A DNA stretch of 32,531 nucleotides, taken from Gammaproteobacteria bacterium. GTDB lineage: Bacteria; Pseudomonadota; Gammaproteobacteria; Arenicellales; Poriferihabitantaceae. Below are positions 1-13,858 of this stretch, one piece after another; position 1 is the stretch's first letter, and every line of letters begins with the position of its first letter. The translations under genes and the position numbers were made by a program. A model generated the notes under the pieces. The model saw nothing but the letters and a program-made list of their open reading frames with translations, was not told the origin of the DNA and ran no database searches. The DNA is taken from the NCBI GenBank assembly GCA_022826305.1, contig JAJDVC010000199.1, forward strand, positions 1 to 32,531. The letters are read 5' to 3'.

Positions 1-719
1 TCCACGTTCCGCACCGCCTCGTCGAAGGTCACCCGCCACGTCAGGCTGTCCGCCGCGGTCGGCGAGACCGACGGCGCATGCCTCACGATCGACGACACCC
101 GCGGCGAAGTCGTGTCCGTGCCGCCGTCGTTGTCGCGGATGGTCACCGTGGCCGTGGGATTGGCGCCCACGGAATACCCGACCGGAAACGGATCGATGGC
201 GACCCCCGGCGACGGATCGATGTCGATCCTGAAGGTCTCGTCCGGCTCCACGACCTCGTGGTTCCATGCGTTCGATTCCACCACCTCGGGCGATTCGTCC
301 ACGGTCCGGACGGTGAAGGTGTGCGAGCCGGCGTTCGCCGGAATGGTCACGCTGTCGGGCGACGCCTCGTAGTCCTTGCCCACCGCGAATTCCCGCTGGC
401 TGTCATAGCTGACGTGCCTTCTGCGGGCCGTGCCGCCGCTCCCCCTGTCCGCATCCCGGTAAACGAGGCCCACTTCCGTGGCCGTGGCGCGCGGCGGGTC
501 GATGTTCACCGTCACGCTGACTTCCCCTCCCTCCGTCACGCTCCAGGACGCGCTGGCGAAACCGATCGTGTAGGTCTGCGCCTGTGCTACGGTCGAGAGG
601 CCGAACAGCAGCGGCAACCACAGCAGGCCGCCCGCAACGGCGCGGAGGAAGGATGATTCAGGCGGGCAGGAGCGGGCAGAGACCGGACGGAGGAACCGCC
701 GCCATATGGCCCCGATCAT
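1..719 (-). CDS. Secreted/surface protein with Calx-beta-like and Ig-like segments; C-terminus runs off window edge
   Basis: Not in the ORF track because no stop lies in the window. I checked every minus-frame codon from 719 to 3 and found no stop. Translation: MIGAIWRRFLRPVSARSCPPESSFLRAVAGGLLWLPLLFGLSTVAQAQTYTIGFASASWSVTEGGEVSVTVNIDPP...EVVEPDETFRIDIDPSPG...ATVTIRDNDGGTDTTSPRVSSIVRHAPSVSPTAADSLTWRVTFDEAVRNV. Signal-peptide-like LLWLPLLFGLSTVAQAQ, Calx-beta-like motif. The frame stays open upstream through the octamer tract to about 822. Confidence 0.8.
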   Translation of the reverse strand, partial: MIGAIWRRFLRPVSARSCPPESSFLRAVAGGLLWLPLLFGLSTVAQAQTYTIGFASASWSVTEGGEVSVTVNIDPPRATATEVGLVYRDADRGSGGTARRRHVSYDSQREFAVGKDYEASPDSVTIPANAGSHTFTVRTVDESPEVVESNAWNHEVVEPDETFRIDIDPSPGVAIDPFPVGYSVGANPTATVTIRDNDGGTDTTSPRVSSIVRHAPSVSPTAADSLTWRVTFDEAVRNV

Positions 720-825
720 GACCGGAATGCGAACGCAGGTTGGGCGATCCAGCGATCCAGCGATCCAGCGATCCAGCGATCCAGCGATCCAGCGATCCAG
801 CGATCCAGCGATCCAGCTTATTCAT
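658..825 (-). CDS. Short ORF (55 aa, MNKLDRWIAGSLDRWIAGS...) starting upstream of the octamer tract; possible out-of-frame leader of the surface protein
   Basis: ATG at 825-823 with SD-like GTGAGG about 8 nt upstream; reads through nine octamers then terminates at TGA 660-658, one frame off from the surface-protein ORF. Confidence 0.45.
   Translation of the reverse strand: MNKLDRWIAGSLDRWIAGSLDRWIAGSPNLRSHSGHDRGHMAAVPPSGLCPLLPA
745..816. repeat. Perfect tandem octamer (CGATCCAG)x9
   Basis: Directly read: nine identical 8-bp units; minus-strand unit CTGGATCG encodes the period LDRWIAGS. Confidence 0.98.
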
Positions 826-887
826 GATGCGAACCTCACGGCAACTTGTCAAACCCCGATCCAGAACCCCGCCTGCGGCAACCGGAA

Positions 888-912
888 CATGCTCGCCACA
901 ATGACGAGCATG
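888..912. promoter_or_regulatory. Perfect inverted repeat CATGCTCG-N9-CGAGCATG upstream of the octamer locus
   Basis: catgctcg ccacaatga cgagcatg read directly; 8-bp perfect arms. Confidence 0.5.
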
Positions 913-1699
913 AGAAATCCTGGCGGATGATGCCGGATTCAACACGCGAAGACAAGTCCCGCATGACCTGTCGGAACCACAGGTGCAGCAGCGGTGACGG
1001 CGCACCGGTCCCATGACACCAGCCGGATTTTGGCGCACTGCCGCTGGCGGGGCATTGCCACCCGCCATGCCAGGCCTGCCGCATCGTTCCGCGCCGCCAG
1101 CCATGGCCAGCGCCTCATGTCATGCTGCGATGACTCGTGACGGCAATGTCTTGGGAAAGTAATTTCCTGAAAAAAATCCGGATTATCCGATGGAAGGCTC
1201 ATCGACACGACCATGGCATGCCAGTGTGAAACTGTTAGGAGAGACGAAACTTACGCTGCAAGGTTGCGCTGGATGGCGGGGAAACACGGCCTTCCGGGCA
1301 ATATCACACACCGCTCGCCGGAGTCCGCCGCTTTGGCAGGCAATGCTCCCTGAACGCATCCACGCCCAGTTCGTTCACCATCTGCCTGAAGTTGCAGCCC
1401 AGCGCCATCACCCGAACATTGCACGAGCACCGAGAAGCAGGTGAGATTCAGGATATCAGGAGACGGAGAGGTCGGTATCGACGACAGGCAACGGTTTTGC
1501 CCGGCATTTCCTGCGGTGAAAGCCGCTTCGGAGGACCGGCAACGGGCCTCCAGGTCGTCGCTTGCGGCCGTTGCCGGAGGTCCGGGCAGGAGCAGTCCTC
1601 ACACCGTGGCGTGATCGGGCAATGTTCGGGGTAGCACCGGCGGGCGGGCCACCGCAAACCCCGATTCATTGAAATACCTTCACACTCTCATTTGCACAG

Positions 1700-1904: not shown

Positions 1905-2735
1905 TCACGCCTTCGGGTCACGACGCCTGGTTGGCGGATGCAGTGTCGGACTGTCTACCGACTGCCTTCTCGCGCCGGAACCTTTGGGGCGGTAGACATG
2001 CGCCCTGGATGAATCATAGAGGTAGGAATCGCAAAACCCGTCGCTGCCCAGCACCCTGCCGACCAGTATCAGGGCCGTCCTGGTAAATTTCCTGGCACGT
2101 ACTTTCCCGACGATATCCCCGAGCGTTCCGGACACCCGCTCCTGGTCAGGCCAGGACGTGCGATAACACACCGCTACCGGACAATCCTCGCCATAGTGCG
2201 GAATCAGTTCCTCCACGATCCTGTGAATTCGCGGGACACCCAGATGAATGGCCAGGGTAGCCCCGGTAGCCGCCAGCGCTGGCAGCCGTTCGCGTTCCGG
2301 GAACGGCGTCTTGCCCTCGTAGCGGGTCAGGATCACCGTCTGGGTTATGCCGGAGAGCGTCAGTTCCCTGCCCAGCCAGGCCGCCGATGCCGAAGTTGCG
2401 GTGACGCCCGGGATGATTTCGTAGTCGATCCCGAACACCTCAAGGCGCCGAATCTGCTCTGCGACGGCACCATAGATCGAAGGGTCTCCCGAGTGCAGGC
2501 GGGCAACGTCCCGTCCCGCCGCGTCAGCCTTCCTGATTTCCCCGATGATCTGGTCAAGGTCCATGGATGAGGTGTCCATGACCAGTTCCGCGGAATCCCC
2601 GGCCGGTTCGAGGACCGCGCAAGGCACCAGCGAACCAGCATACAGGATCACCGGGCATGCGGCGATAAGCTTTTGTGCCTTGACCGTGAGCAGTTCCGGG
2701 TCACCTGGCCCGGCGCCGATGAAATAGACCGTCAT
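1905..2735 (-). CDS. cobM: Precorrin-4/cobalt-precorrin-4 C11-methyltransferase
   Basis: MTVYFIGAGPGDPELLTVKAQKLI... YAGSLVP, HSGDPSIYGA; tetrapyrrole methylase family; ATGA overlap with cobJ stop. Confidence 0.9.
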   Translation of the reverse strand: MTVYFIGAGPGDPELLTVKAQKLIAACPVILYAGSLVPCAVLEPAGDSAELVMDTSSMDLDQIIGEIRKADAAGRDVARLHSGDPSIYGAVAEQIRRLEVFGIDYEIIPGVTATSASAAWLGRELTLSGITQTVILTRYEGKTPFPERERLPALAATGATLAIHLGVPRIHRIVEELIPHYGEDCPVAVCYRTSWPDQERVSGTLGDIVGKVRARKFTRTALILVGRVLGSDGFCDSYLYDSSRAHVYRPKGSGARRQSVDSPTLHPPTRRRDPKA

Positions 2736-3508
2736 GACTGCCTGCCGTAACCCCTGGGCGTGTAGACCCACTCCTGCTGCGGCGTTTCAAGGCGGCGACT
2801 CTCGCTGTTCCCTACCGATACCAGCGTGAACATGTCGATGTCTCCGGCCTCCAGTTCCGATAACCTGACCACGCGAATGCGTTCATTCCTGCGGGTCAGC
2901 TGTTGCCCGATAATCACGGGCGTTGCGGACGGTCGGTATTCAAGCAGGATTTCCCGGGCGGCATCGATCTGCCAGTTTCGTCTCCCTGACCGGGGGTTAT
3001 AGAGCGATATCACGAAATCGCCCGCACCGGCGGCGTGCAGACGCCTGGCGATGGTTTCCCACGGAGTAAGCAGGTCGGACAGGGAAATGGCGCAGAAGTC
3101 GTGCCCCAGTATGGCGCCGCATCGGCTGGCTACCGCCTGCATGGCGGAAATTCCAGGTATGACCTCTATCTCCACGCCATGCCAGCCGCCCCCCCGCAGG
3201 GCACCATCTGGGTGCCGGTCAAGCAGTTCGAATACCAGGGTCGCCATGGCGTATATTCCGGCATCGCCGCCGGATACCAGGGATGTCACCCGCCCTCCGG
3301 CGGCGAGATCCAGTGCAAGACGGGCCCGTTCGGTTTCCTTGCCGAGAGGCAGCTCGTGCAACGTTTTTCCGTCACGGATGGCTCCGAGCAGTTCCAGGTA
3401 CAGTCCATAGCCCACCAGTTCGCTGCTGGCCCCGATAGCCGCAGCGGCCCGGGGAGTAACGAGGTCCGGACTGCCGGGGCCAAGACTCACAATGTACAGT
3501 CTAGTCAT
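2732..3508 (-). CDS. cobJ: Precorrin-3B/cobalt-precorrin-3 C17-methyltransferase
   Basis: MTRLYIVSLGPGSPDLVTPRAAAAI...SGGDAGIYAMA...GAILGHDFCAISLSDLLTPW...SLYNPRS. Confidence 0.9.
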   Translation of the reverse strand: MTRLYIVSLGPGSPDLVTPRAAAAIGASSELVGYGLYLELLGAIRDGKTLHELPLGKETERARLALDLAAGGRVTSLVSGGDAGIYAMATLVFELLDRHPDGALRGGGWHGVEIEVIPGISAMQAVASRCGAILGHDFCAISLSDLLTPWETIARRLHAAGAGDFVISLYNPRSGRRNWQIDAAREILLEYRPSATPVIIGQQLTRRNERIRVVRLSELEAGDIDMFTLVSVGNSESRRLETPQQEWVYTPRGYGRQS

Positions 3509-4286
3509 CTTCAGGGTTCTTCGTTGCAATCCCGGCGCAGGCTCGGGCAATGGCACAGGTGGCGCGTCCCGACTTGCGCTTCGGCACCATCAGCTCAGGC
3601 TGTGCGCCGGTAGCCCGTGCTGCTGCCAGAAGCGCTGCTGACTCCGCCACACCGTAGATGCCGACGGTCTCCTTCACATAGTCCGAACGCACCGACAGTA
3701 ACGGCTCCATCGGCGAGAGGTCGGCGGCGCTGAACACCTGGAAAGGTATGTTGAGGCGTCCGCACAGATTCCGCAGCCCGGGCTCATCGCGCTTGATATC
3801 GATACTGTTTACCGAGTGCAGGCTGTCTTTCGGCATCTCCGCCAGTCGGAGACACTGCTTGAGCAACGTTTCAAGCTCCTGGTCGCTGCAATTCCGTTCA
3901 CACCCCATTCCAGCCGTATAGACAGGCTCCGGGCAGGCGCTCGCAGTGGTCAGTACGGGCCGGGCCCCGATCGCGCCGGCAACCTCCATCGCAAGCGCGT
4001 TCGCACCGCCTTCGTGGCCGGACAGCAACGAAATGACATATGCGCCGACCTGGTCCAGCACCACTACCGGAGGATCCGTTTTCTTGCTCCCGAGGACCGG
4101 CGCCAGGGTGCGCACGACAATGCCGGTGGCACAGATCATCACCAGTGCATCCCCGTCCCGGAACGCCTGTTGAACCCGCGCCTTGAACGGGCTCGGCCTG
4201 TGCCACTGCCTGCAGTTCGGGAGACGCTTCACGATCTTCCTGCCCAGATCACGCCCTGCCGGGGTAAGGCTTACCACCTGTCTCAC
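3501..4286 (-). CDS. cbiG: Cobalamin biosynthesis protein CbiG (N-terminal plus CobE-like C-terminal regions)
   Basis: ICATGIVVRTLAPVLGSKKTDPPVVVLDQVGAYVISLLSGHEGGANALA and GMGCERNCS...; within cobalamin operon. Confidence 0.85.
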   Translation of the reverse strand: MRQVVSLTPAGRDLGRKIVKRLPNCRQWHRPSPFKARVQQAFRDGDALVMICATGIVVRTLAPVLGSKKTDPPVVVLDQVGAYVISLLSGHEGGANALAMEVAGAIGARPVLTTASACPEPVYTAGMGCERNCSDQELETLLKQCLRLAEMPKDSLHSVNSIDIKRDEPGLRNLCGRLNIPFQVFSAADLSPMEPLLSVRSDYVKETVGIYGVAESAALLAAARATGAQPELMVPKRKSGRATCAIARACAGIATKNPEDD

Positions 4287-5011
4287 TTGACCGCCCGCCC
4301 GGCGCGCATTACCAGAAACAGGGAAAAGTAGGGACCTGCTTCGACCGGAAGGCGGCTCACGTCGGTTTCGACACGCTGGTTGTCCCGTCCTATGTATTCA
4401 AGGTAAACCGCCTCCTCGGTCCGCCCGGCGCGCTCCAGCGCCTCGATAATCCGGGGGCGCGAACGACCCGCCTTCATGATGACGACACTGTCATGAGCAT
4501 CAAGCGTCTGCACTATCTGCCCAAGGTCATGGCGGCCGCTGGCTACGGCGAAAGACTCGTCCAGCAGGGTCAGCGGACGCTGCAACGCGGCGGAAGCAGC
4601 ATGCATTGAGGAAATGCCCGGCACGACTTCACAACGGTTATGCACAAGGCGTATCAGCAGGTATGCAAAGGAGCCGAAAAACAGGGGGTCGCCCTCGCAC
4701 AGGAACACGACCCGCTTGCCTGCGTCGATGCGTTGCTGGATGTCGGAAGCGGCCAGGTCGTAAATCCGGTTGGCAGGCGTGCGGTCGTCGTTCATCGGCA
4801 CCACGAAGGGGAGTTCCTCCTGGTGCCCGGGCGCCTCTTCAAGCAGTCCGCCAGCGATATCGCGCGCCTGCGACCTGCCGGGAGCACTGCAGATATAGCT
4901 GACCACATCTGCATGGAGAATACGGTCTGCCGCCCTGATGGTGATCAATCCGGGGTCACCCGGCCCCACGCCGACACCGGTAAAAGCAGATTGACAGGCC
5001 TCGATCTTCAT
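4283..5011 (-). CDS. cobI: Precorrin-2/cobalt-factor-II C20-methyltransferase
   Basis: GVGVGPGDPGLITIRAADRIL...FLCEGDPLFFGSFAYL...VVPGISSMHAASAALQRPLT. Confidence 0.87.
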   Translation of the reverse strand: MKIEACQSAFTGVGVGPGDPGLITIRAADRILHADVVSYICSAPGRSQARDIAGGLLEEAPGHQEELPFVVPMNDDRTPANRIYDLAASDIQQRIDAGKRVVFLCEGDPLFFGSFAYLLIRLVHNRCEVVPGISSMHAASAALQRPLTLLDESFAVASGRHDLGQIVQTLDAHDSVVIMKAGRSRPRIIEALERAGRTEEAVYLEYIGRDNQRVETDVSRLPVEAGPYFSLFLVMRAGRAVK

Positions 5012-6273
5012 CCATGCACACCTTCGCTCTTGCAAAGCCGGAACAGACTTACGGGTCGCTTCCGCGCCTGGGTCCATTCACCTGCACGGAACCTGCTCCG
5101 GCTTACCGCGATGTCAATGGATTCAGCCAGGGCGATGTCCCGCCGTTTGCAGAAACCCCGCAGGCACTCGCGGCTTGAACCGGTCACGGCGCTCGCGACC
5201 AGCAATCCGCCTGATGCCAGACGTTGCCAGCAGTAGTCCAGCAGCAGGGGCAACTTGCCTGCACTGCCTCCGATAAAGACCCGGTCCGGGTCCGGCACCG
5301 ACTCCAGTACCGCCGGCGCATTGCCATTCACGACCTCGACGTTGGACACGCCGAACCTTGCGCGGTTGGCGCGGATGCATCGCAGCCGTTCCGCATGACA
5401 TTCGACAGCGAATATCGTTGCGTCGGGATGCCACAGGGCAAGTTCGGTGGCGACGCCGCCGCACCCGGCACCGACATCCCAGACCAATTGATTCGCACCC
5501 GTCTGCAGGAGAGACAGGATCTGCAGCCTGGTCTCCCGCTTGCTGATCATCCCGGCACCGGGCCCGCCATCGGTAACAAGGTCGGTATCCCGGATACCCG
5601 GAAAGTCGGGGACGCCCCTGCCCCTGCCCCGAAGATGCAGCACGCTGATGTTCAGGTCGGCAAACGACCGGCCGGTATCCCTGTCGAACCCATTCACGTC
5701 AATACGGTGTATCTTCTCGTCATCGTAGCCGAGCCTTTCACAAACCCACAGGATCGACTGCTCCAGCTGCGCATCGATGCAGATGCCCGCCAGCGTGTCC
5801 GGGGGGCTGTTCTGGTCCGTAAGGATCACCAGCGTGCGGCCGGGCCGCAAATGACGGTTCAGGGTGTGCAGGGGTCTGCCGTGCAGGCTCACGACGGTGC
5901 AATCCTGCAACGACAGCCCGAGACGGCTGCAGGCGGCCTGGATGCTTGACAGGGCGCCATGAAACCTGAGCTTCGACAACGGATACTGTCGGCTCAGCCG
6001 CCGGCCGATGCCAAAGAACAGGGGATCGCCGGAGGCCAGGACGGCCACCTCGCCACCATGTCCTGCAAGCAGTGTATCCAGTTGTGCAACCTTCGACAGC
6101 GTGATCATCGGCGGCCAGTCAGCCGGCATTGTCCGGGTCATGGCACACAGCCATTCCAGGTGACGCTCGGTACCGATGATGGCCGAAGCGCCCCTGAGCG
6201 CCGCCTCGGCAACGGAACCCAGCCGGCCGCCGGCTTCCACGCCCAGGCCCACAACATGAATCCGGTCGGCCAT
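5008..6273 (-). CDS. cobL: Precorrin-6Y C5,15-methyltransferase (CbiE-CbiT fusion)
   Basis: MADRIHVVGLGVEA...LASGDPLFFGIGRRL... plus C-terminal ISKRETRLQILSLLQTGANQLVWDVGAGCGGVATE; ATGA overlap with cobH stop. Confidence 0.88.
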   Translation of the reverse strand: MADRIHVVGLGVEAGGRLGSVAEAALRGASAIIGTERHLEWLCAMTRTMPADWPPMITLSKVAQLDTLLAGHGGEVAVLASGDPLFFGIGRRLSRQYPLSKLRFHGALSSIQAACSRLGLSLQDCTVVSLHGRPLHTLNRHLRPGRTLVILTDQNSPPDTLAGICIDAQLEQSILWVCERLGYDDEKIHRIDVNGFDRDTGRSFADLNISVLHLRGRGRGVPDFPGIRDTDLVTDGGPGAGMISKRETRLQILSLLQTGANQLVWDVGAGCGGVATELALWHPDATIFAVECHAERLRCIRANRARFGVSNVEVVNGNAPAVLESVPDPDRVFIGGSAGKLPLLLDYCWQRLASGGLLVASAVTGSSRECLRGFCKRRDIALAESIDIAVSRSRFRAGEWTQARKRPVSLFRLCKSEGVHG

Positions 6274-6914
6274 CAGTACCACTCACCGTGGTTGCAGCGC
6301 AACAGCGCGTTGCAACTGGCGGCCGTCGGTGCGCTGCCGCCTTTTCTCCCCGGCAGCGTAATGCACTCGACGCCCAGTTCACGGTGCCGCTCCCACAGCA
6401 ATTGCTTCGATTCCTGTGCTCCCACGAAACCGACCGGCATGGCAATGACCAGTGCCGGGACGCCAGCGTCGCCTTCAAGCATTTCCAGCAGGCGAAACAG
6501 GGCCGAAGGCGCATTACCGATAAGGACCACGCTACCTGGCAGCAGTTCGCGCCACAGGTCCAGAGCCACCATGGATCGCGTCTGCGCATGTTCCCGTGCC
6601 CGTCTGGACACCGACTCGTCATTGAGAAAGCACAGTGGCGGTTTCGACAACAGTCGCCGGGTTATGCCCTGGCATACCATTTCGACATCGCAAAGGATCG
6701 TGCATGAGTCCCGGAGCGCCGCACACCCCATGTCACATGCCCGCTCGCTGAAACGCAGTTCGCCGGCGATGCCCGGTTCTCCGAGGCTGTGCACCACGCG
6801 CATTGCCACCTGCTGCTGGACACGGCCGAGACCATCGAGATCGGTCACACGGCGAATCCGGCGAAAGCTTTCGTGCTCGATCTCGACAGGATCTGACAGA
6901 TACTCTCTGGACAT
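6273..6914 (-). CDS. cobH: Precorrin-8X methylmutase (CbiC/CobH)
   Basis: MSREYLSDPVEIEHESFRRIRRV...VVHSLGEPGIAGELRFSERA...GNAPSALFRLLEM...MPVGFVGAQESK. Confidence 0.9.
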   Translation of the reverse strand: MSREYLSDPVEIEHESFRRIRRVTDLDGLGRVQQQVAMRVVHSLGEPGIAGELRFSERACDMGCAALRDSCTILCDVEMVCQGITRRLLSKPPLCFLNDESVSRRAREHAQTRSMVALDLWRELLPGSVVLIGNAPSALFRLLEMLEGDAGVPALVIAMPVGFVGAQESKQLLWERHRELGVECITLPGRKGGSAPTAASCNALLRCNHGEWY

Positions 6915-6921
6915 GGCGAAC

Positions 6922-7677
6922 CTATTCCATACCAAGTTGCAGTACTGCGTCATGGCAGGCGGGAACATCATCGAACTCGCGATCCACCACAGGCAGTTCG
7001 GGCCGTGCCAGCAGGTGGACCGGGACACCGTGTTCCCGGGCGACCACCAGCTTGGCTGCAGAATGCCTTCCGCCGCTGTTCTTGCAGACTATCGCATCAA
7101 CGGCGAGCTTGCGAAGCAATTGCCGCTCCGCATCGATTTCGAATGGACCGATTGCCTGGATCCATGACATGGATGACGGCAGATCGATCAACGGCATCGT
7201 GGCCGAACGCAACCACTGCTGCTGACCGGCGGAACGCGTGGAGGCCGAGAGGGTGTCAACGAACCCCTGGGACAACCGTCCCGTGGCAAGAAACACCGAA
7301 CGCGAATACGCCAGTTCCGGAAGCAGCGATTCCCAGTCATGGAACACCTGCCACCGGTCACCCGGTCTTTCCCGCCAGGCCGGGCGCAGGTAGCGCCAGC
7401 ACCTGATCCCTGCCGTACTGCCAGAGCAGGCGGCCTGCCGGCTCATGGTGGATGCGTAGGGATGGGTCGCATCGAGAATCAGGTCGATCGCCTCATTGCA
7501 GAGCCACTGGTCAAGGCCGCCGTGACGGCTGAATCCGCCGCTGATCACCCTGCAGGGAAGATCCGGCTGGCGCACCTGGCCAGCGATGCTGTAGATGACG
7601 TCGATCGTTTCGTGCCGGTGCAGCCGACTGGCCAGATCCACGGCCTCGCGGATGCCGCCCAGTACCAGAATCCTCAT
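6922..7677 (-). CDS. cobK: Precorrin-6A reductase (CobK/CbiJ)
   Basis: MRILVLGGIREAVDLASRL...ISGGFSRHGGLDQWL...DLILDATHPYASTMSRQA...CKNSGG. Confidence 0.88.
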   Translation of the reverse strand: MRILVLGGIREAVDLASRLHRHETIDVIYSIAGQVRQPDLPCRVISGGFSRHGGLDQWLCNEAIDLILDATHPYASTMSRQAACSGSTAGIRCWRYLRPAWRERPGDRWQVFHDWESLLPELAYSRSVFLATGRLSQGFVDTLSASTRSAGQQQWLRSATMPLIDLPSSMSWIQAIGPFEIDAERQLLRKLAVDAIVCKNSGGRHSAAKLVVAREHGVPVHLLARPELPVVDREFDDVPACHDAVLQLGME

Positions 7678-8771
7678 CGGCTGAAGGGAGCATGACCAAC
7701 GAGATCGCCATGCCGGTCAATGGCCCACACCTCCACGTCCGTGCCGGGGCCCGCCAGGTCGGCCGCAAAATCACGGGCAAGGCCACAGACCGGCGCGGCA
7801 ATCCCCACATCCGCTTCCCGACACATCTGCAGGACCTCGATACTGGTATTGGCCGAGAGGATACGGCTGGACAGGTTCCGGTCCGCACCGCCCGCAGCCG
7901 CGATTCCCGACAGGAATCGGAAATCGATTGAAGACTTTCGACTGTTGAGATCCCGGTTCCTGCACGCCAGCTTGCTGATCTTGCCGAATCCGCCGCAGAT
8001 GCTCAGACGGGCCACCGGATGTCGTCGCAGGTATTTCAGCATCGCACCGGCGAAATCCCCCATTTCGACCAGTGCCGAATCCTCCAGCCCGTAGTGCCGC
8101 CTGATCGCGCATTCGCTACTGTTGCCGGTGCTTGCGGCGATATGCGACAGGCCACAGGCTCGGGCGACATCAATGCCCTGATGAATGGATGCAATCCAGG
8201 CCGCACAGGAATAGGGGCGGACGATACCGCTCGTGCCGAGTATGGACAACCCGCCGACGATGCCAAGCCGCGGATTCATGGTTTTCCGTGCCAGGGCCGC
8301 GCCAGCCTCGATGCCGACACTCACTTCGAACCCTTCCGTGTAGTCGAACCGCAGGGCCTGACGGGCCAGGTGTTCACGCATCATCCGCCTCGGTACGGGG
8401 TTGATGGCGGGCTCCCCCAAGGCAAGCGGCAGACCGGGCCGGGTCACTGTACCCACCCCCTCTCCGGCACGGAACCGGACACCGGGCGGTTTCCTGCGAT
8501 GCAGTTCAACGAAAACGCAGGCACCATGCGTGATATCGGGATCGTCGCCGGCGTCCTTGATGGTCGAGGCATGAACCCCCTGATCCCGTGTTTCGCAGGC
8601 TTCTATGGGCAAAGCCACCTCATCGCCCTTCGGCAGGGTCACAGTTACCTCCTCAAGGGACAGACCGGTGAACAGCCGCTCGGAGGCGGCAACACAGCAG
8701 GCCGTGGCACAGGTTCCCGTGGTGAATCCGCTACGCAGCCTGTTCGAACGTTCCGCGCTCTCGGGCCACAT
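7674..8771 (-). CDS. cbiD: Cobalt-precorrin-5B C1-methyltransferase CbiD
   Basis: LRSGFTTGTCATACCVAASERL...DAGDDPDITHGACVFVEL...GEPAINPVPRRMM...GGLSILGTSGIVRPYS. Confidence 0.93.
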   Translation of the reverse strand: MWPESAERSNRLRSGFTTGTCATACCVAASERLFTGLSLEEVTVTLPKGDEVALPIEACETRDQGVHASTIKDAGDDPDITHGACVFVELHRRKPPGVRFRAGEGVGTVTRPGLPLALGEPAINPVPRRMMREHLARQALRFDYTEGFEVSVGIEAGAALARKTMNPRLGIVGGLSILGTSGIVRPYSCAAWIASIHQGIDVARACGLSHIAASTGNSSECAIRRHYGLEDSALVEMGDFAGAMLKYLRRHPVARLSICGGFGKISKLACRNRDLNSRKSSIDFRFLSGIAAAGGADRNLSSRILSANTSIEVLQMCREADVGIAAPVCGLARDFAADLAGPGTDVEVWAIDRHGDLVGHAPFSR

Positions 8772-8774
8772 GTG

Positions 8775-9437
8775 TCACCAGACCCGTGTCAGCCAGTAGC
8801 CGCCAACCGCCATTGACCCAAAGGCGACCAGGTATCGAAATCCGTTCATCTTCCTGGCCGAGCAACGACCGATACAACGCTGCATGGACCCGAAACCCAA
8901 CCCGAACATCAGCATCGTCAGCATGACCGCAAGCGAAAACAGCAACAGGTAAACGAGGGCCGAAAGCAGGCTCCCCTGCATCGCAACCGGCATCAGGGCC
9001 AGGACCGTTGCGCTACCGGCAAGCCCGTGCAGCACCCCTATCATTACCGGCGCATGAGTCAGGCCTGCCTGGCTGTGACGAACCTTGACGCCTGCTCCCT
9101 GCGGTTCCCACTGACGATGTTCCGGCGTCCCGGACACTTCCAGGCGAAGGCGTCGGATACAGTAAAAGCCCATGCCGATCAGTACCAGTCCCACCGACAG
9201 TTCACTCACCTGCAGCAGGTGTGCGGGCAGGCCGAGGCCGAGGCCGAAAAGCAGTACGCCGCTCACCAGCAGGACCAGAGAATGCCCGAGCGCCCAGTTG
9301 GTACAGTAGCGCATGGTTCTCGGCAGATCCGTCTCCATGCTGCTGAAAGCCGACAAGGTCATGACGTGATCGGGATCGAATGCATGCAGCAATCCCAGCA
9401 TGTAGACGAAGCCCAGCACATGCAACGCACCATCCAT
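8775..9437 (-). CDS. Membrane transporter (HupE/UreH/RcnA-like Ni/Co transporter, possibly cobalt uptake)
   Basis: Multi-TM; GLLHAFDPDHVMTLSAFSS and GVLHGLAGSATVLAL motifs; stop of the upstream CDS shares a base with this start. Confidence 0.7.
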   Translation of the reverse strand: MDGALHVLGFVYMLGLLHAFDPDHVMTLSAFSSMETDLPRTMRYCTNWALGHSLVLLVSGVLLFGLGLGLPAHLLQVSELSVGLVLIGMGFYCIRRLRLEVSGTPEHRQWEPQGAGVKVRHSQAGLTHAPVMIGVLHGLAGSATVLALMPVAMQGSLLSALVYLLLFSLAVMLTMLMFGLGFGSMQRCIGRCSARKMNGFRYLVAFGSMAVGGYWLTRVW

Positions 9438-10780
9438 CAGGCAACCTCCCCGCAGGCGGGCAGGCCCCGGGCATTACCCCTGAGCAGGCTGACAATGGCG
9501 GACAGGTTGGAGGGGAAGAACAGGTGCAGATAGGTGGCGGTCAGGCTGCCCTTGCGGTAAATAGCCTCGCCGGGAGCAGGGTGATGTGGTCGCCTGCCAT
9601 GGGCGATTGGAGCCGGTGTCCCGGAACTGCGTGAGCGGTGATGGGCGTGTCCGCGAATTTCTCCTTCGGGCAGCGGTGCGCTCTGCATTCCCTGACAGCC
9701 CCGCTTTCCGCGCATGGCTCCGTGTCCCGTCATCAGACCAGCCATCGGATGGCATTCCTGGTTGAGATCGGTCAGACTCTCGAGACAATAGAGGAGGCCA
9801 CCGCATTCCGCCAGTATCGGCCTGTCCGAAGCGTGAAAGTCCCGCAGGTCCCTGATCATGGTGGTATTGCCTGATAACCGTCTGGCATGCAGCTCCGGAT
9901 ATCCGCCGGGTAGCCAGATCGCATCGACATCGGGAAGGCCGGGGTCTTCGAGCGGCGAAAAGAACCGAACCTGCGCGCCCATCTCCCGCAGCAGTCGCAG
10001 ATTGGCCGCGTAGATGAAACTGAAGGCATCATCCCTGGCGACGCCTATCACGCACCCCCCGAGCCACGGTGCAACGGATGCTTCCGCCGGAGCGGTGAAC
10101 TCAACTGGCTCGAAATGCTCCACGATACTGTCGGCGCCGGCATCCTGCAACCAGTCGGCCCCCGCCTCGAAACGCTGTTCGAGCTCGGTTGCAATCTCGG
10201 ATGCCTGCACCAGTCCCAGATGCCTTTGCGGCAGGACAACCGCATCGGATCTTGCCAGACTGGCCAGCAGCGGAATCGATGGGGGCAGGGCATCGGCAAT
10301 CAGCTGGCGGTGCCGTTGCGTACCGCAATGGTTCGCGATCATGCCCGCTACTTGCACATCATCCCGGTAGGCGGCAAGGCCGCCAACCAGGGCGGCAGCC
10401 GTCTGGGCCATCCCCCGCACATCCATGACAACCACCATCGGCAGCCCGAAGCGGACAGCCAGATCGGCGCTTGAGGGCTCTCCGTCGAACATGCCCATCG
10501 CCCCTTCGACAAGAATCAGATCGGCGCCTTGGGCGGCATCCCGGAGACGCTGTCGGCACCACGCCTCGCCCGCCATCCACAGATCGATCTGCTCTACCGG
10601 CTGCCCCGAAGCCTGCTCAAGAATCTGCGGGTCCAGATAGTCCGGTCCGGTCTTGAACACCCGCACCACCTTGCCCTGGCGGCACAACATGCGGGCCAGG
10701 GCGGCGGTGATGGTGGTTTTCCCCTGGCCTGAAGCCGGGGCAGCCAGGAACAGGGCCGGACAACTGGCGGACTCACTCAA
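9437..10780 (-). CDS. cobB: Cobyrinate a,c-diamide synthase
   Basis: APASGQGKTTITAALARMLCRQGKVVRVFKTGPDYLDP...EGAMGMFDG...WLPGGYPELHA...AECGGLLYC; glutamine amidotransferase type. Confidence 0.93.
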   Translation of the reverse strand: MSESASCPALFLAAPASGQGKTTITAALARMLCRQGKVVRVFKTGPDYLDPQILEQASGQPVEQIDLWMAGEAWCRQRLRDAAQGADLILVEGAMGMFDGEPSSADLAVRFGLPMVVVMDVRGMAQTAAALVGGLAAYRDDVQVAGMIANHCGTQRHRQLIADALPPSIPLLASLARSDAVVLPQRHLGLVQASEIATELEQRFEAGADWLQDAGADSIVEHFEPVEFTAPAEASVAPWLGGCVIGVARDDAFSFIYAANLRLLREMGAQVRFFSPLEDPGLPDVDAIWLPGGYPELHARRLSGNTTMIRDLRDFHASDRPILAECGGLLYCLESLTDLNQECHPMAGLMTGHGAMRGKRGCQGMQSAPLPEGEIRGHAHHRSRSSGTPAPIAHGRRPHHPAPGEAIYRKGSLTATYLHLFFPSNLSAIVSLLRGNARGLPACGEVA

Positions 10781-11379
10781 AACTCGATCCCCGCTTGGGC
10801 CTTGACACCGAGGCGGAATGCGTGGCCCTCATCCTTGACCACGGAAATGGTATCGGCAATGGCTCTCAGCCTTTCCGTCATGGTGCGTCCGGTAATGATG
10901 ACATTCTGATTTCGCGGGCGGCCGACAAGAGCCTCCACCACCGGTTCAACCTCGAGATAACCGTACTTGAACATGTAGCTCATCTCGTCAAGCACCAGCA
11001 GATCGGGGCCCGGATCACGCATCAGTTTCCGGGCAATTCCCCAGGCTTTTTGCGCGGCGGCGATATCCTGGTCGCGATCCTGGGTTTCCCAGGTGAACCC
11101 ATGCCCCATGACATGCCACTCGATATTCCGGTGGTCCTTGAAGAACCTGTACTCTCCGGTTTCCCTTCGTCCCTTGATGAACTGCACCACCACGCACCGC
11201 TGTCCATGGCCTGCCGAACGGGCCATGGTACCGAAAGCGGAACTGCTCTTGCCTTTACCGGGACCCAGCAGGAGAATCAGTACGCCCCGTTCTTCCCTGG
11301 CCTGGGCAATCCGGGCATCCACGACAGCCTTCTTCCGGGCCATTCGCTTTCTGTGCTTGTCGGGATCGGTTATCGGCAT
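10777..11379 (-). CDS. cobO: Cob(I)yrinic acid a,c-diamide adenosyltransferase (CobO/BtuR)
   Basis: GVLILLLGPGKGKSSSAFGTMARSAGHGQRCVVVQFIKG...PDLLVLDEMSYMFKYGYL...NVIITGR. Confidence 0.92.
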   Translation of the reverse strand: MPITDPDKHRKRMARKKAVVDARIAQAREERGVLILLLGPGKGKSSSAFGTMARSAGHGQRCVVVQFIKGRRETGEYRFFKDHRNIEWHVMGHGFTWETQDRDQDIAAAQKAWGIARKLMRDPGPDLLVLDEMSYMFKYGYLEVEPVVEALVGRPRNQNVIITGRTMTERLRAIADTISVVKDEGHAFRLGVKAQAGIEF

Positions 11380-11384
11380 GGCTG

Positions 11385-13052
11385 TCAGGCCGGCAGCGGA
11401 TGGTAGGCGGCGCCCAGCGTTTCCGCAATTTCAGTGGCGCGGCCCCGCCTGATTCTCGAGGTCTCCATATCGATCAATACCGTGTCACCCCTGAGCGCAA
11501 GTCCGGAAAGTGATGCGGAAGACCTGCCGTCGGTGATCAGGTAGGTGCAAAACCGCAGTTCCGGCTGCGTGCGATGCATGACCTCCTGATACTGTGCAGC
11601 ACGTTCGATCACGCTCCTCAATGGCGTACCGCCGCCACCCTCGATCCTGTCCAGCAGACAACGCAGGCCCCGTGGCGTGCGCCGATTCGACAGCAGCATC
11701 CTTACCTGCTGATTGCCGAATCCCAGAATGGCAAGCTGCGCACGGTCGAGATATGCCTGCTCGGCAATGTCGAGAATGGCTGCCTTGGCATCCGCCAGCC
11801 GACTGTTGCGCAGCGTCGAGGCGGAGGTGTCGAGCAGAATCAGGTGCAAAACCGGATCGCCGCAGCGCCGGCGCCTGAACCGCAACCGGGACAATGGCCA
11901 TTGCCCCGGATTGGCCGCCAGTGTCCGAAACCAGTCCAGGCGGCTTCCCATGTAGCCGGACAGCCTGCTTCCGTATCCACGCCTCCCCTGGCGACGCGAG
12001 AATGCCGAACCGTTTCGTCGATCCACCGAGTCGGCTCCGGATGCCGATACGGCAGCCCTGTACTTCGATACGGCTGCCGTCGGCTGTCCGAGCGGCGGCA
12101 TCTGTCCCCAGTCACCGTCTTCACGTCCCTGCCGACCATGCCGTTCCGAAGGACTGGACGCCGGTGATTCGGGGGGTGCATCGGATGGGCAGGATTTCCT
12201 GTCCCTCCGTCGGTGATCCAGCACCAGACCCTCGACTGCGTCAACGTCGTCGAGTCGGACACGGGTAACGCCGCCCAGTGCGGCATGCGCCAGTGCGGCA
12301 CGTATCCAGACGATATCGGCGCGCAGTCCATCCACATCGGCTGCCAGGCATCGCTCGGCGATCTCCATGCGCATGTCCTCCGGGCAATCGACGTTTTCCC
12401 GAAGCCGGATGGCCTGCTGCAAAACGTCACGCAGCGCATCCTGTTCCGACTGCCTTCGGCGGCAGTACGTCACGGGATCCCGCTCAAACAGTTCACGCTG
12501 CCGGGCGATCTCGACACGCTCCTGCACATTGAACCGCTCCTGTATACGGACCGACATTCCAAACCGGTCCTGCAGTTGCGTGCGCAATTCGCCCTCTTCC
12601 GGGTTCATGGTGCCCAGCAGGATGAATCGGGCCTCATGCCGGTGACTGATTCCGTCTCTCTCCACATGGTTGATGCCGCCCGAGGCAACATCCAGCAGCA
12701 GATCCACCAGGTTGTCCGGCAACAGGTTGATCTCGTCAACATACAGCACGCCCCCATGCGCCCTGGCAAACAGACCGGGGCTGAATGCAACCTGCTTCTC
12801 GCCCAGGGCCCGTTGCAGGTCGAGCGTCCCGGTCAGCATCTCTTCGGAAGCACCCAGCGGCAGGTTGACGAAAGCGACGGGATCGGGCACGATTTCGGGC
12901 AAGCCCCTTGCCAGGGTTGACTTGGCGGTACCCCGGGGTCCGCTTACCAGCAGACCCCCAATACGTGGATCAATGGCCGCAAGCTTGAGCGCCAGCTTGA
13001 ACCTTGACTGGCCGATTACCGCGGTAAACGGAAATTCGGGCTGGATGCTCAC
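11385..13052 (-). CDS. chlID: Fused ChlI/ChlD-type chelatase ATPase-VWA subunit (cobaltochelatase-associated)
   Basis: AAA+ GPRGTAKSTLARGLPEI, LYVDEINLLPDNLVDLLLDVASGG, GTMNPEEGELRTQLQDRFG; C-terminal VWA LLDTSASTLRNSRLADAK. Confidence 0.88.
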   Translation of the reverse strand: MSIQPEFPFTAVIGQSRFKLALKLAAIDPRIGGLLVSGPRGTAKSTLARGLPEIVPDPVAFVNLPLGASEEMLTGTLDLQRALGEKQVAFSPGLFARAHGGVLYVDEINLLPDNLVDLLLDVASGGINHVERDGISHRHEARFILLGTMNPEEGELRTQLQDRFGMSVRIQERFNVQERVEIARQRELFERDPVTYCRRRQSEQDALRDVLQQAIRLRENVDCPEDMRMEIAERCLAADVDGLRADIVWIRAALAHAALGGVTRVRLDDVDAVEGLVLDHRRRDRKSCPSDAPPESPASSPSERHGRQGREDGDWGQMPPLGQPTAAVSKYRAAVSASGADSVDRRNGSAFSRRQGRRGYGSRLSGYMGSRLDWFRTLAANPGQWPLSRLRFRRRRCGDPVLHLILLDTSASTLRNSRLADAKAAILDIAEQAYLDRAQLAILGFGNQQVRMLLSNRRTPRGLRCLLDRIEGGGGTPLRSVIERAAQYQEVMHRTQPELRFCTYLITDGRSSASLSGLALRGDTVLIDMETSRIRRGRATEIAETLGAAYHPLPA

Positions 13053-13780
13053 CCGGACGGACGCAGCCAGCGGTTGTACACAAGGGCGCTGGAAACTCCC
13101 AGTACGATCCAGAAGGCAAGATTGACCGCGCCGCCGACCATCATGAACTGCATATGCAGCTCGGTCAGCCTGACAACGGCATCCGGATCGGCGTGTACAA
13201 ACGCAGGCCCTTCATGCGTCGGCGGGCCGACAATGTAGGGAATTGCGACCAGGACGATGCCCAGCACCTTGAACCTGGCTTGCGCCAGGGCAAGAATGCC
13301 GATCCCGAGGGCCACACAGGCAACCGTCAGCAACCACCAGAACTGGCGGTCTGCAAGCGGCGGCGCCTCGATACCGGGAATTTCCGGATGCAGTCCCATG
13401 CCCGGAGCAAGGTAGATGGCGGCGAAACCGGCAAGGCCCCAGAGCAGTCCCTGACCGAGACTGATGTCCTGCCGTCTTGCCGACCAGAACTGGCTCATCA
13501 GTGCGAGCAGCACCGCAGCGAAGCCTGTTGCGGCAAACATGTTCGAAACCACCGTGTAAAATGTACGCTCGACGCCTGCCTCGGGCTCCCACTCCCCGTG
13601 CACATGACCCGCATCATGGTCGTGACCGTGCCCTGTTCCCGCATCCGATGGCTCATCGTCTTCAAAGCCTTCAGCCGCAAGAATGATCGGATCCACCGCC
13701 ACCACCTGCATCAGGCTGAGCAATGACCCCGCCAGGACCCCCATGGCAAGTGCACAGTACACGATACGGGCGAAGATCAT
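13049..13780 (-). CDS. cbtA: Cobalt transporter subunit CbtA
   Basis: MIFARIVYCALAMGVLAGSLLSLMQ...His-rich GTGHGHDHDAGHVHGEWEPE...GLHPEIPGIEAPPL...PTHEGPAFVHADP. Confidence 0.85.
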   Translation of the reverse strand: MIFARIVYCALAMGVLAGSLLSLMQVVAVDPIILAAEGFEDDEPSDAGTGHGHDHDAGHVHGEWEPEAGVERTFYTVVSNMFAATGFAAVLLALMSQFWSARRQDISLGQGLLWGLAGFAAIYLAPGMGLHPEIPGIEAPPLADRQFWWLLTVACVALGIGILALAQARFKVLGIVLVAIPYIVGPPTHEGPAFVHADPDAVVRLTELHMQFMMVGGAVNLAFWIVLGVSSALVYNRWLRPSG

Positions 13781-13858
13781 GCTGACTTCATACCGGCGGC
13801 ATGGCTGGATCTGGACTCGAACAGGCTCTCCCGGGTCAGGAGATGGCTTCAATCCTGC

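Follow-up and report, generated by a model that had tools for sequence, protein, structure and literature searches.

The window analyzed here, a 32,531-nucleotide stretch of DNA that forms one contig (C4) of the genome of an uncultured gammaproteobacterium (G000; 3.03 Mb in 263 contigs), very probably carries a translational slipped-strand (simple-sequence-repeat) contingency locus at positions 745 to 816. Tandem octamers lie here between a start codon preceded by a Shine-Dalgarno (SD) sequence and the signal peptide of a surface protein, and sister genes of this and related species have differing repeats (8-, 7-, or 1-letter) at the corresponding position. Together, these features strongly indicate a switch that turns surface proteins on and off at random, of a type familiar from pathogens. 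The locus is well supported as part of a phasome that comprises several genes of this uncultured lineage. In the PDB, rpoB of G000 is closest to entries from Pseudomonas, followed by Xanthomonas and E. coli, and is more distant from Caulobacter, in line with a gammaproteobacterium.

The octamer tract and its reading frames

Over window positions 658 to 852, the minus strand contains, in order, a TTGACA motif, an SD-like GTGAGG, ATGAATAAG, nine perfect copies of CTGGATCG, CCCAACCTGCGTTCGCATTCCGGTC joined to the ATG at 719, and the signal-peptide open reading frame (ORF), with the bases directly 3' of the array beginning CCCAAC. TRF reports this array at 744 to 817 with a period of 8, 9.2 copies, a 100% match, and a score of 148, and it is the sole strong tandem repeat of the window, the runner-up scoring 41. 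Both the minus-strand read and TRF agree with the original prediction, which had placed nine octamer units between an SD-preceded ATG at 825 and the signal-peptide ORF. The features are listed in Table 1.

Table 1. Features of the candidate switch locus in the window
Feature	Position	Strand	Details
Tandem tract of nine perfect CTGGATCG units (CGATCCAG on the plus strand)	745..816	-	LDRWIAGS repeats encoded in every frame
Upstream ATG, proposed start of the switchable ORF	823..825	-	Nine bases 5' of the tract; SD energy -6.4
Shine-Dalgarno-like GTGAGG	834..839	-	8 nt 5' of ATG 825; identical in paralog C238
Leader ORF at the assembled n=9, predicted OFF state	658..825	-	55 aa plus TGA at 658-660
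Signal-peptide surface-protein ORF	3..719	-	239 aa, truncated by the contig end; N-terminus MIGAIWRRFLRP...LFGLSTVAQAQ common to paralogs
ATGA	716..719	-	Downstream ATG 719 overlaps the TGA closing the leader ORF at n=11, 8, ...
Sigma-70-like TTGACA-17-CATCAT, 10/12	824..852	-	Overlaps ATG 825; not conserved in C238/C219
Tract plus upstream flank, duplicated cassette	744..956	-	91% identity to the paralog C238 flank

The octamer contains no stop codon in any frame, and its length is not a multiple of three, so that slippage of one unit shifts the reading frame. The signal-peptide frame is open back across the tract for 273 codons, from the contig end to a stop that overlaps ATG 825. Translation from ATG 825 was computed to be out of frame with the signal peptide at nine units, where it ends after 55 amino acids, and in frame at 10 units, with seven units giving the same frame as 10. 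The reading-frame claims of the original prediction, namely, early termination at nine units, restoration of the frame by the gain of one unit or the loss of two, an octamer free of stops, and a surface-protein ORF open through the entire tract, were all reproduced in these computations.

In the mechanism that we propose, replication slippage would add or remove 8-nt units. At unit numbers of n = 1 mod 3 (7, 10, 13, and so on), ribosomes starting at ATG 825 would cross the tract in the frame of the signal peptide and make the surface protein (ON), whereas the tract as assembled (n=9) would lead to early termination (OFF). At n=11, 8, and so on, the stop of the leader would coincide with the downstream ATG (ATGA), where weak reinitiation may follow. 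G000 has at least five such genes, and if each switched independently, cells of the population would come to differ in their surfaces.

A cobalamin biosynthesis cluster, containing genes for cobM/cbiF, cobJ/cbiH, cbiG, cobI/cbiL, cbiE-cbiT, cbiD, cobB, and a cobaltochelatase-like protein, adjoins the switch locus at 1905 to 13852 on the minus strand. The upstream flank of the locus (window 744 to 956 and 1411 to 1619) is duplicated at paralog C238 (88 to 91% identity; L033 16777 to 17504), with approximately 450 bp extra in the window, and the segment at 1042 to 1151, possibly a dispersed element, also matches paralogs C219 and C230.

A family of surface-protein genes with swapped repeat units

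Arrays of at least three octamers in tandem occur at exactly four loci in G000, all of them directly 5' of one surface-protein gene family. In each case an ATG is found 5 or 9 nt upstream of the tract and the ATG of the ORF itself is found 25 nt downstream, and the ORFs share a signal-peptide cassette (MxGAAWRxLRP...LLLGLxTxAQAQ). The window locus (C4, n=9) and C238, whose 23 units comprise 15 of CTGGATCG followed by 8 of CCGGATCG, both carry ATGAATAAG before the tract and are not in frame; C219 (n=5, not in frame) and C230 (n=15, in frame, the ON configuration) carry ATGAG instead, and the classes of unit number that give ON therefore differ, being n = 0 mod 3 for C219 and C230 and n = 1 mod 3 for C4 and C238. 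At its 15 units, C230 has a fully open frame of 1,165 amino acids that ends in a barrel with a terminal ...LGARW.

A search with a profile of the signal-peptide cassette, combined with a protein search, identified a fifth G000 paralog (C74), in which a GGATGCC heptamer is repeated 15.6 times at the equivalent site. Every unit of this heptamer brings its own ATG, and the C74 switch would therefore be graded and cannot be strictly binary. The sole tract-less G000 copy of the cassette that was found (C141) is a pseudogene with a broken signal-peptide frame and stops in the barrel, and a further family member (C48) is also degraded. G000_C115 and G002_C39 have no tract near the start, and the cassette match is only weak in both.

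The relatives compared, with one genome per species, included three congeners (G002, G006, and G001) and a member of another genus of the family (G013). Homologous sites in G002 contain tracts of C17, C10, C14, G13, and G13, the site in G006 contains C11, and that in G001 contains a long G/C tract adjoining an assembly gap, the poly-C and poly-G tracts of the congeners ranging from 10 to 17 nt. At G002_C63, ATGGATCGCCGGATCG is followed by 14 C, an octamer remnant running into poly-C. G000_C74 and G002_C2 are 75.6% identical upstream of the tract and 79% identical over 1,281 nt downstream; because they align on both sides, they are homologous genes in which the repeat unit differs (heptamer versus poly-C). 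In G013, seven copies of CCGGATCG precede another signal-peptide ORF at a contig edge. All of the units found at the site are 1, 7, or 8 nt long, lengths that three does not divide. The octamers CTGGATCG and CCGGATCG are one transition apart and the heptamer, read as CCGGATG, equals CCGGATCG minus one C; the repeat units may thus derive from one another.

Poly-C/G tracts of at least 12 nt were present in all 11 family genomes scanned and in two of six genomes from elsewhere in the order. Long homopolymer tracts also occur at other sites in G000 (C15 at C42:14759 and G17 at C170:1860), and L114 of G013 has a further heptamer (AGCCAAG, 9.6 copies at 1495 to 1561) ahead of a 1,473-amino-acid Calx-beta/autotransporter-barrel ORF.

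The slipped-strand architecture put forward in the original prediction is strengthened by its recurrence at a conserved site in five G000 paralogs and in congeners, with differing units and lengths. Change of both unit type and length while the site persists is the signature of a slipped-strand contingency locus. This comparative evidence is the most persuasive: other than by a contingency site, it is difficult to account for swapped, frame-shifting units that recur at one position.

The original prediction described the gene product as a Calx-beta/Ig-like protein. Pfam did not support this label for the window fragment itself, which gave only a sub-threshold match to Cupredoxin_1, but its full-length homologs L107, L114, and L102 contain Calx-beta domains above the Pfam gathering score. 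L114 also passes the NCBIfam autotransporter barrel model TIGR01414 (19.2 versus a cutoff of 16), and several homologs end in ...RW, like outer membrane barrels. C230 did not match TIGR01414 and had no significant domain match except by homology, and a profile of the barrel found no relative by sequence in the PDB. The window gene is cut at window base 1, ahead of its C-terminus, leaving 239 amino acids visible; an AlphaFold model of this fragment was poor (pLDDT of 44) and was set aside. Because the N-terminus is shared and window bases 1 to 577 have 86.7% DNA identity to the interior of G002_C2, we infer that the truncated gene belongs to the Calx-beta/barrel surface class, and its product is presumably displayed at the surface.

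Octamer arrays were sought more widely. Among 118 relatives, the octamer was found outside G000 solely in G013, and the heptamer (GGATGCC type) was found in G000 alone. In public genomes, the octamer occurred in 11 records from unrelated bacteria, mostly without the architecture of the window locus; these included nine CTGGATCG units in Tahibacter aquaticus (L099 6224 to 6303) and 15 units in Streptomyces sp. SBT349 (L092 2823 to 2943), located either ahead of an open frame or within its 5' part. An array of 12 units in L098 (MAG jk18x22bins.31, 4005 to 4104) was not counted, as it lies approximately 390 nt from the ORF with stops between; L098 is labelled Alphaproteobacteria, its octamer is identical to that of the window, and the downstream ORF is secreted and Calx-like, with no frame linkage. 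Among viral contigs, the array was present on one unrelated contig only, and searches of viral contigs recovered neither the upstream flank nor the protein family. Searches of the literature, both for the octamer and for reports of phase variation among symbionts of sponges, gave no relevant result.

Start codons, tract length, and rival explanations

SD strength was taken as the duplex energy with the anti-SD and ranked against all ATGs of the window. ATG 825 has an energy of -6.4 kcal/mol, among the best 6% of window ATGs, versus +1.2 kcal/mol for ATG 719 (96th percentile), in line with the earlier claim that ATG 719 has no convincing SD. This codon may nevertheless matter, as the TGA of one of the three frames overlaps it and a third, coupled state is possible. 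The anatomy of the locus and the SD comparison favor ATG 825 as the start that would control the switch. Across four G000 loci, energies are -6.4 to -7.4 at the upstream start versus +1.2 to -3.2 at the downstream start; the same comparison showed no contrast between the two starts in G002_C2, G002_C85, G002_C37, G006, or G001.

For 12 loci, we computed where translation initiated at the upstream ATG would lead at n, n+1, and n+2. For 10 of these, the three lengths fall into three classes: in frame, termination at a TGA that overlaps the start codon downstream (ATGA or TTGA), or a stop 47 to 119 nt inside the signal-peptide region. As assembled, the 11 assignable loci comprise 1 ON, 2 ATGA, and 8 OFF; a single ON locus is rather few but is not significant (binomial, about 0.08; the loci are not independent). 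The ATGA overlap is a classic geometry for translational coupling, and graded expression from alternative starts is known for lic1A. Bacterial ATG codons are often followed by A, however, and the third state is no more than hypothetical. A family-wide switch with three states (fusion ON, low coupled expression at ATGA, and OFF), with natural selection keeping the site while the unit is swapped (octamer to heptamer to poly-C) between paralogs and sister species, seems to us possible but doubtful.

If translation instead started at ATG 719, the tract would lie in the 5' untranslated region or in promoter-proximal DNA, and unit number would tune transcription or mRNA structure as in hmwA. The sigma-70-like element (0.3 such matches expected) overlaps ATG 825, so that an mRNA might have its 5' end at the tract or inside it; an ATG or TTG is present at the 719-equivalent position in 12 of 12 loci; codon-position tests, which were uninformative, gave no coding signature in the leader or in the 15-nt segment 5' of ATG 719; and promoter-type heptamer and octamer tracts have been reported for hmwA (PMC2651432, PMC3309571). 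We nevertheless consider this explanation unlikely: the SD lies at 825 and not at 719, C219 and C230 likewise have an SD-ATG abutting the tract despite a different upstream flank, C238 has an altered -35 element and C219 has none, and none of the unit lengths is divisible by three.

In favor of a neutral or mobile microsatellite that expanded from a GATC-rich word and has no regulatory role, CTGGATCG arrays also lie at unremarkable places in unrelated bacteria (Streptomyces, Paracoccus, and Acuticoccus). This explanation is very improbable for the window locus, as all four octamer arrays and the heptamer array of G000 are at one site in one gene family, congeners keep a repeat at that site with the unit changed, and the only tract-less G000 paralog found with the cassette is broken. 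It is similarly improbable that the unit number is an assembly artifact, or the gene a decayed pseudogene, with no switch operating. Contigs do break in these genes or tracts (at window base 1, at the end of C230, and at a poly-G next to N in L107), and C141 and C48 are degraded, but the window tract is perfect, lies inside its contig with unique flanks, and is followed by a frame intact to the contig end, and the long frame of C230 is fully open.

Relation to known phase-variable loci

Autotransporters that undergo phase variation are already known, as is the occurrence of unlike repeat units at homologous sites (hmwA). Lav is a phase-variable autotransporter with GCAA repeats (PMC9022572), and NalP and MspA are phase-variable autotransporters with homopolymer tracts (PMC3723659). 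For Lav, NalP, MspA, and AutB of Haemophilus and Neisseria, the repeats lie within or close to the 5' coding region of a surface autotransporter gene that slippage switches ON or OFF, as is proposed for the window locus; the window locus differs in having an octamer, other passenger domains (Calx-beta in homologs), and an uncultured host lineage, and its family comprises several paralogs in which the unit type at a single site varies. The hmw1A and hmw2A genes of Haemophilus influenzae, in which most strains have a heptamer and even a nonamer occurs, and hmwA of biogroup aegyptius, with 12 to 15 copies of the octamer GCATCATC, likewise show that homologous surface-adhesin loci can carry unlike units (PMC2651432, PMC3309571). 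The hmw tracts lie in the promoter and tune transcription, whereas that of the window lies between an SD-ATG and a signal peptide, and homopolymers are among the units swapped in the window's gene family. In tract position immediately after the proposed start codon, predicted frame switching, and a predicted N-terminal repeat peptide, the window locus resembles the tetranucleotide contingency loci of H. influenzae (PMC2651432), from which it differs in unit length and gene family and in a conserved ATGA that suggests a coupled third state. The novelty here lies in a multigene family from an uncultured lineage, in swapped units that occupy a translational position, and in a third state that may exist.

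Most work on slipped-strand phase variation concerns pathogens and commensals that are restricted to a host. A multigene surface phasome now appears in an uncultured gammaproteobacterial family, which suggests that the surface is under strong and fluctuating selection by a host, phage, or predator. The family also offers a set of natural variants with the repeat unit exchanged and the switch site retained, so that how mutability evolves at a single site can be tested directly.
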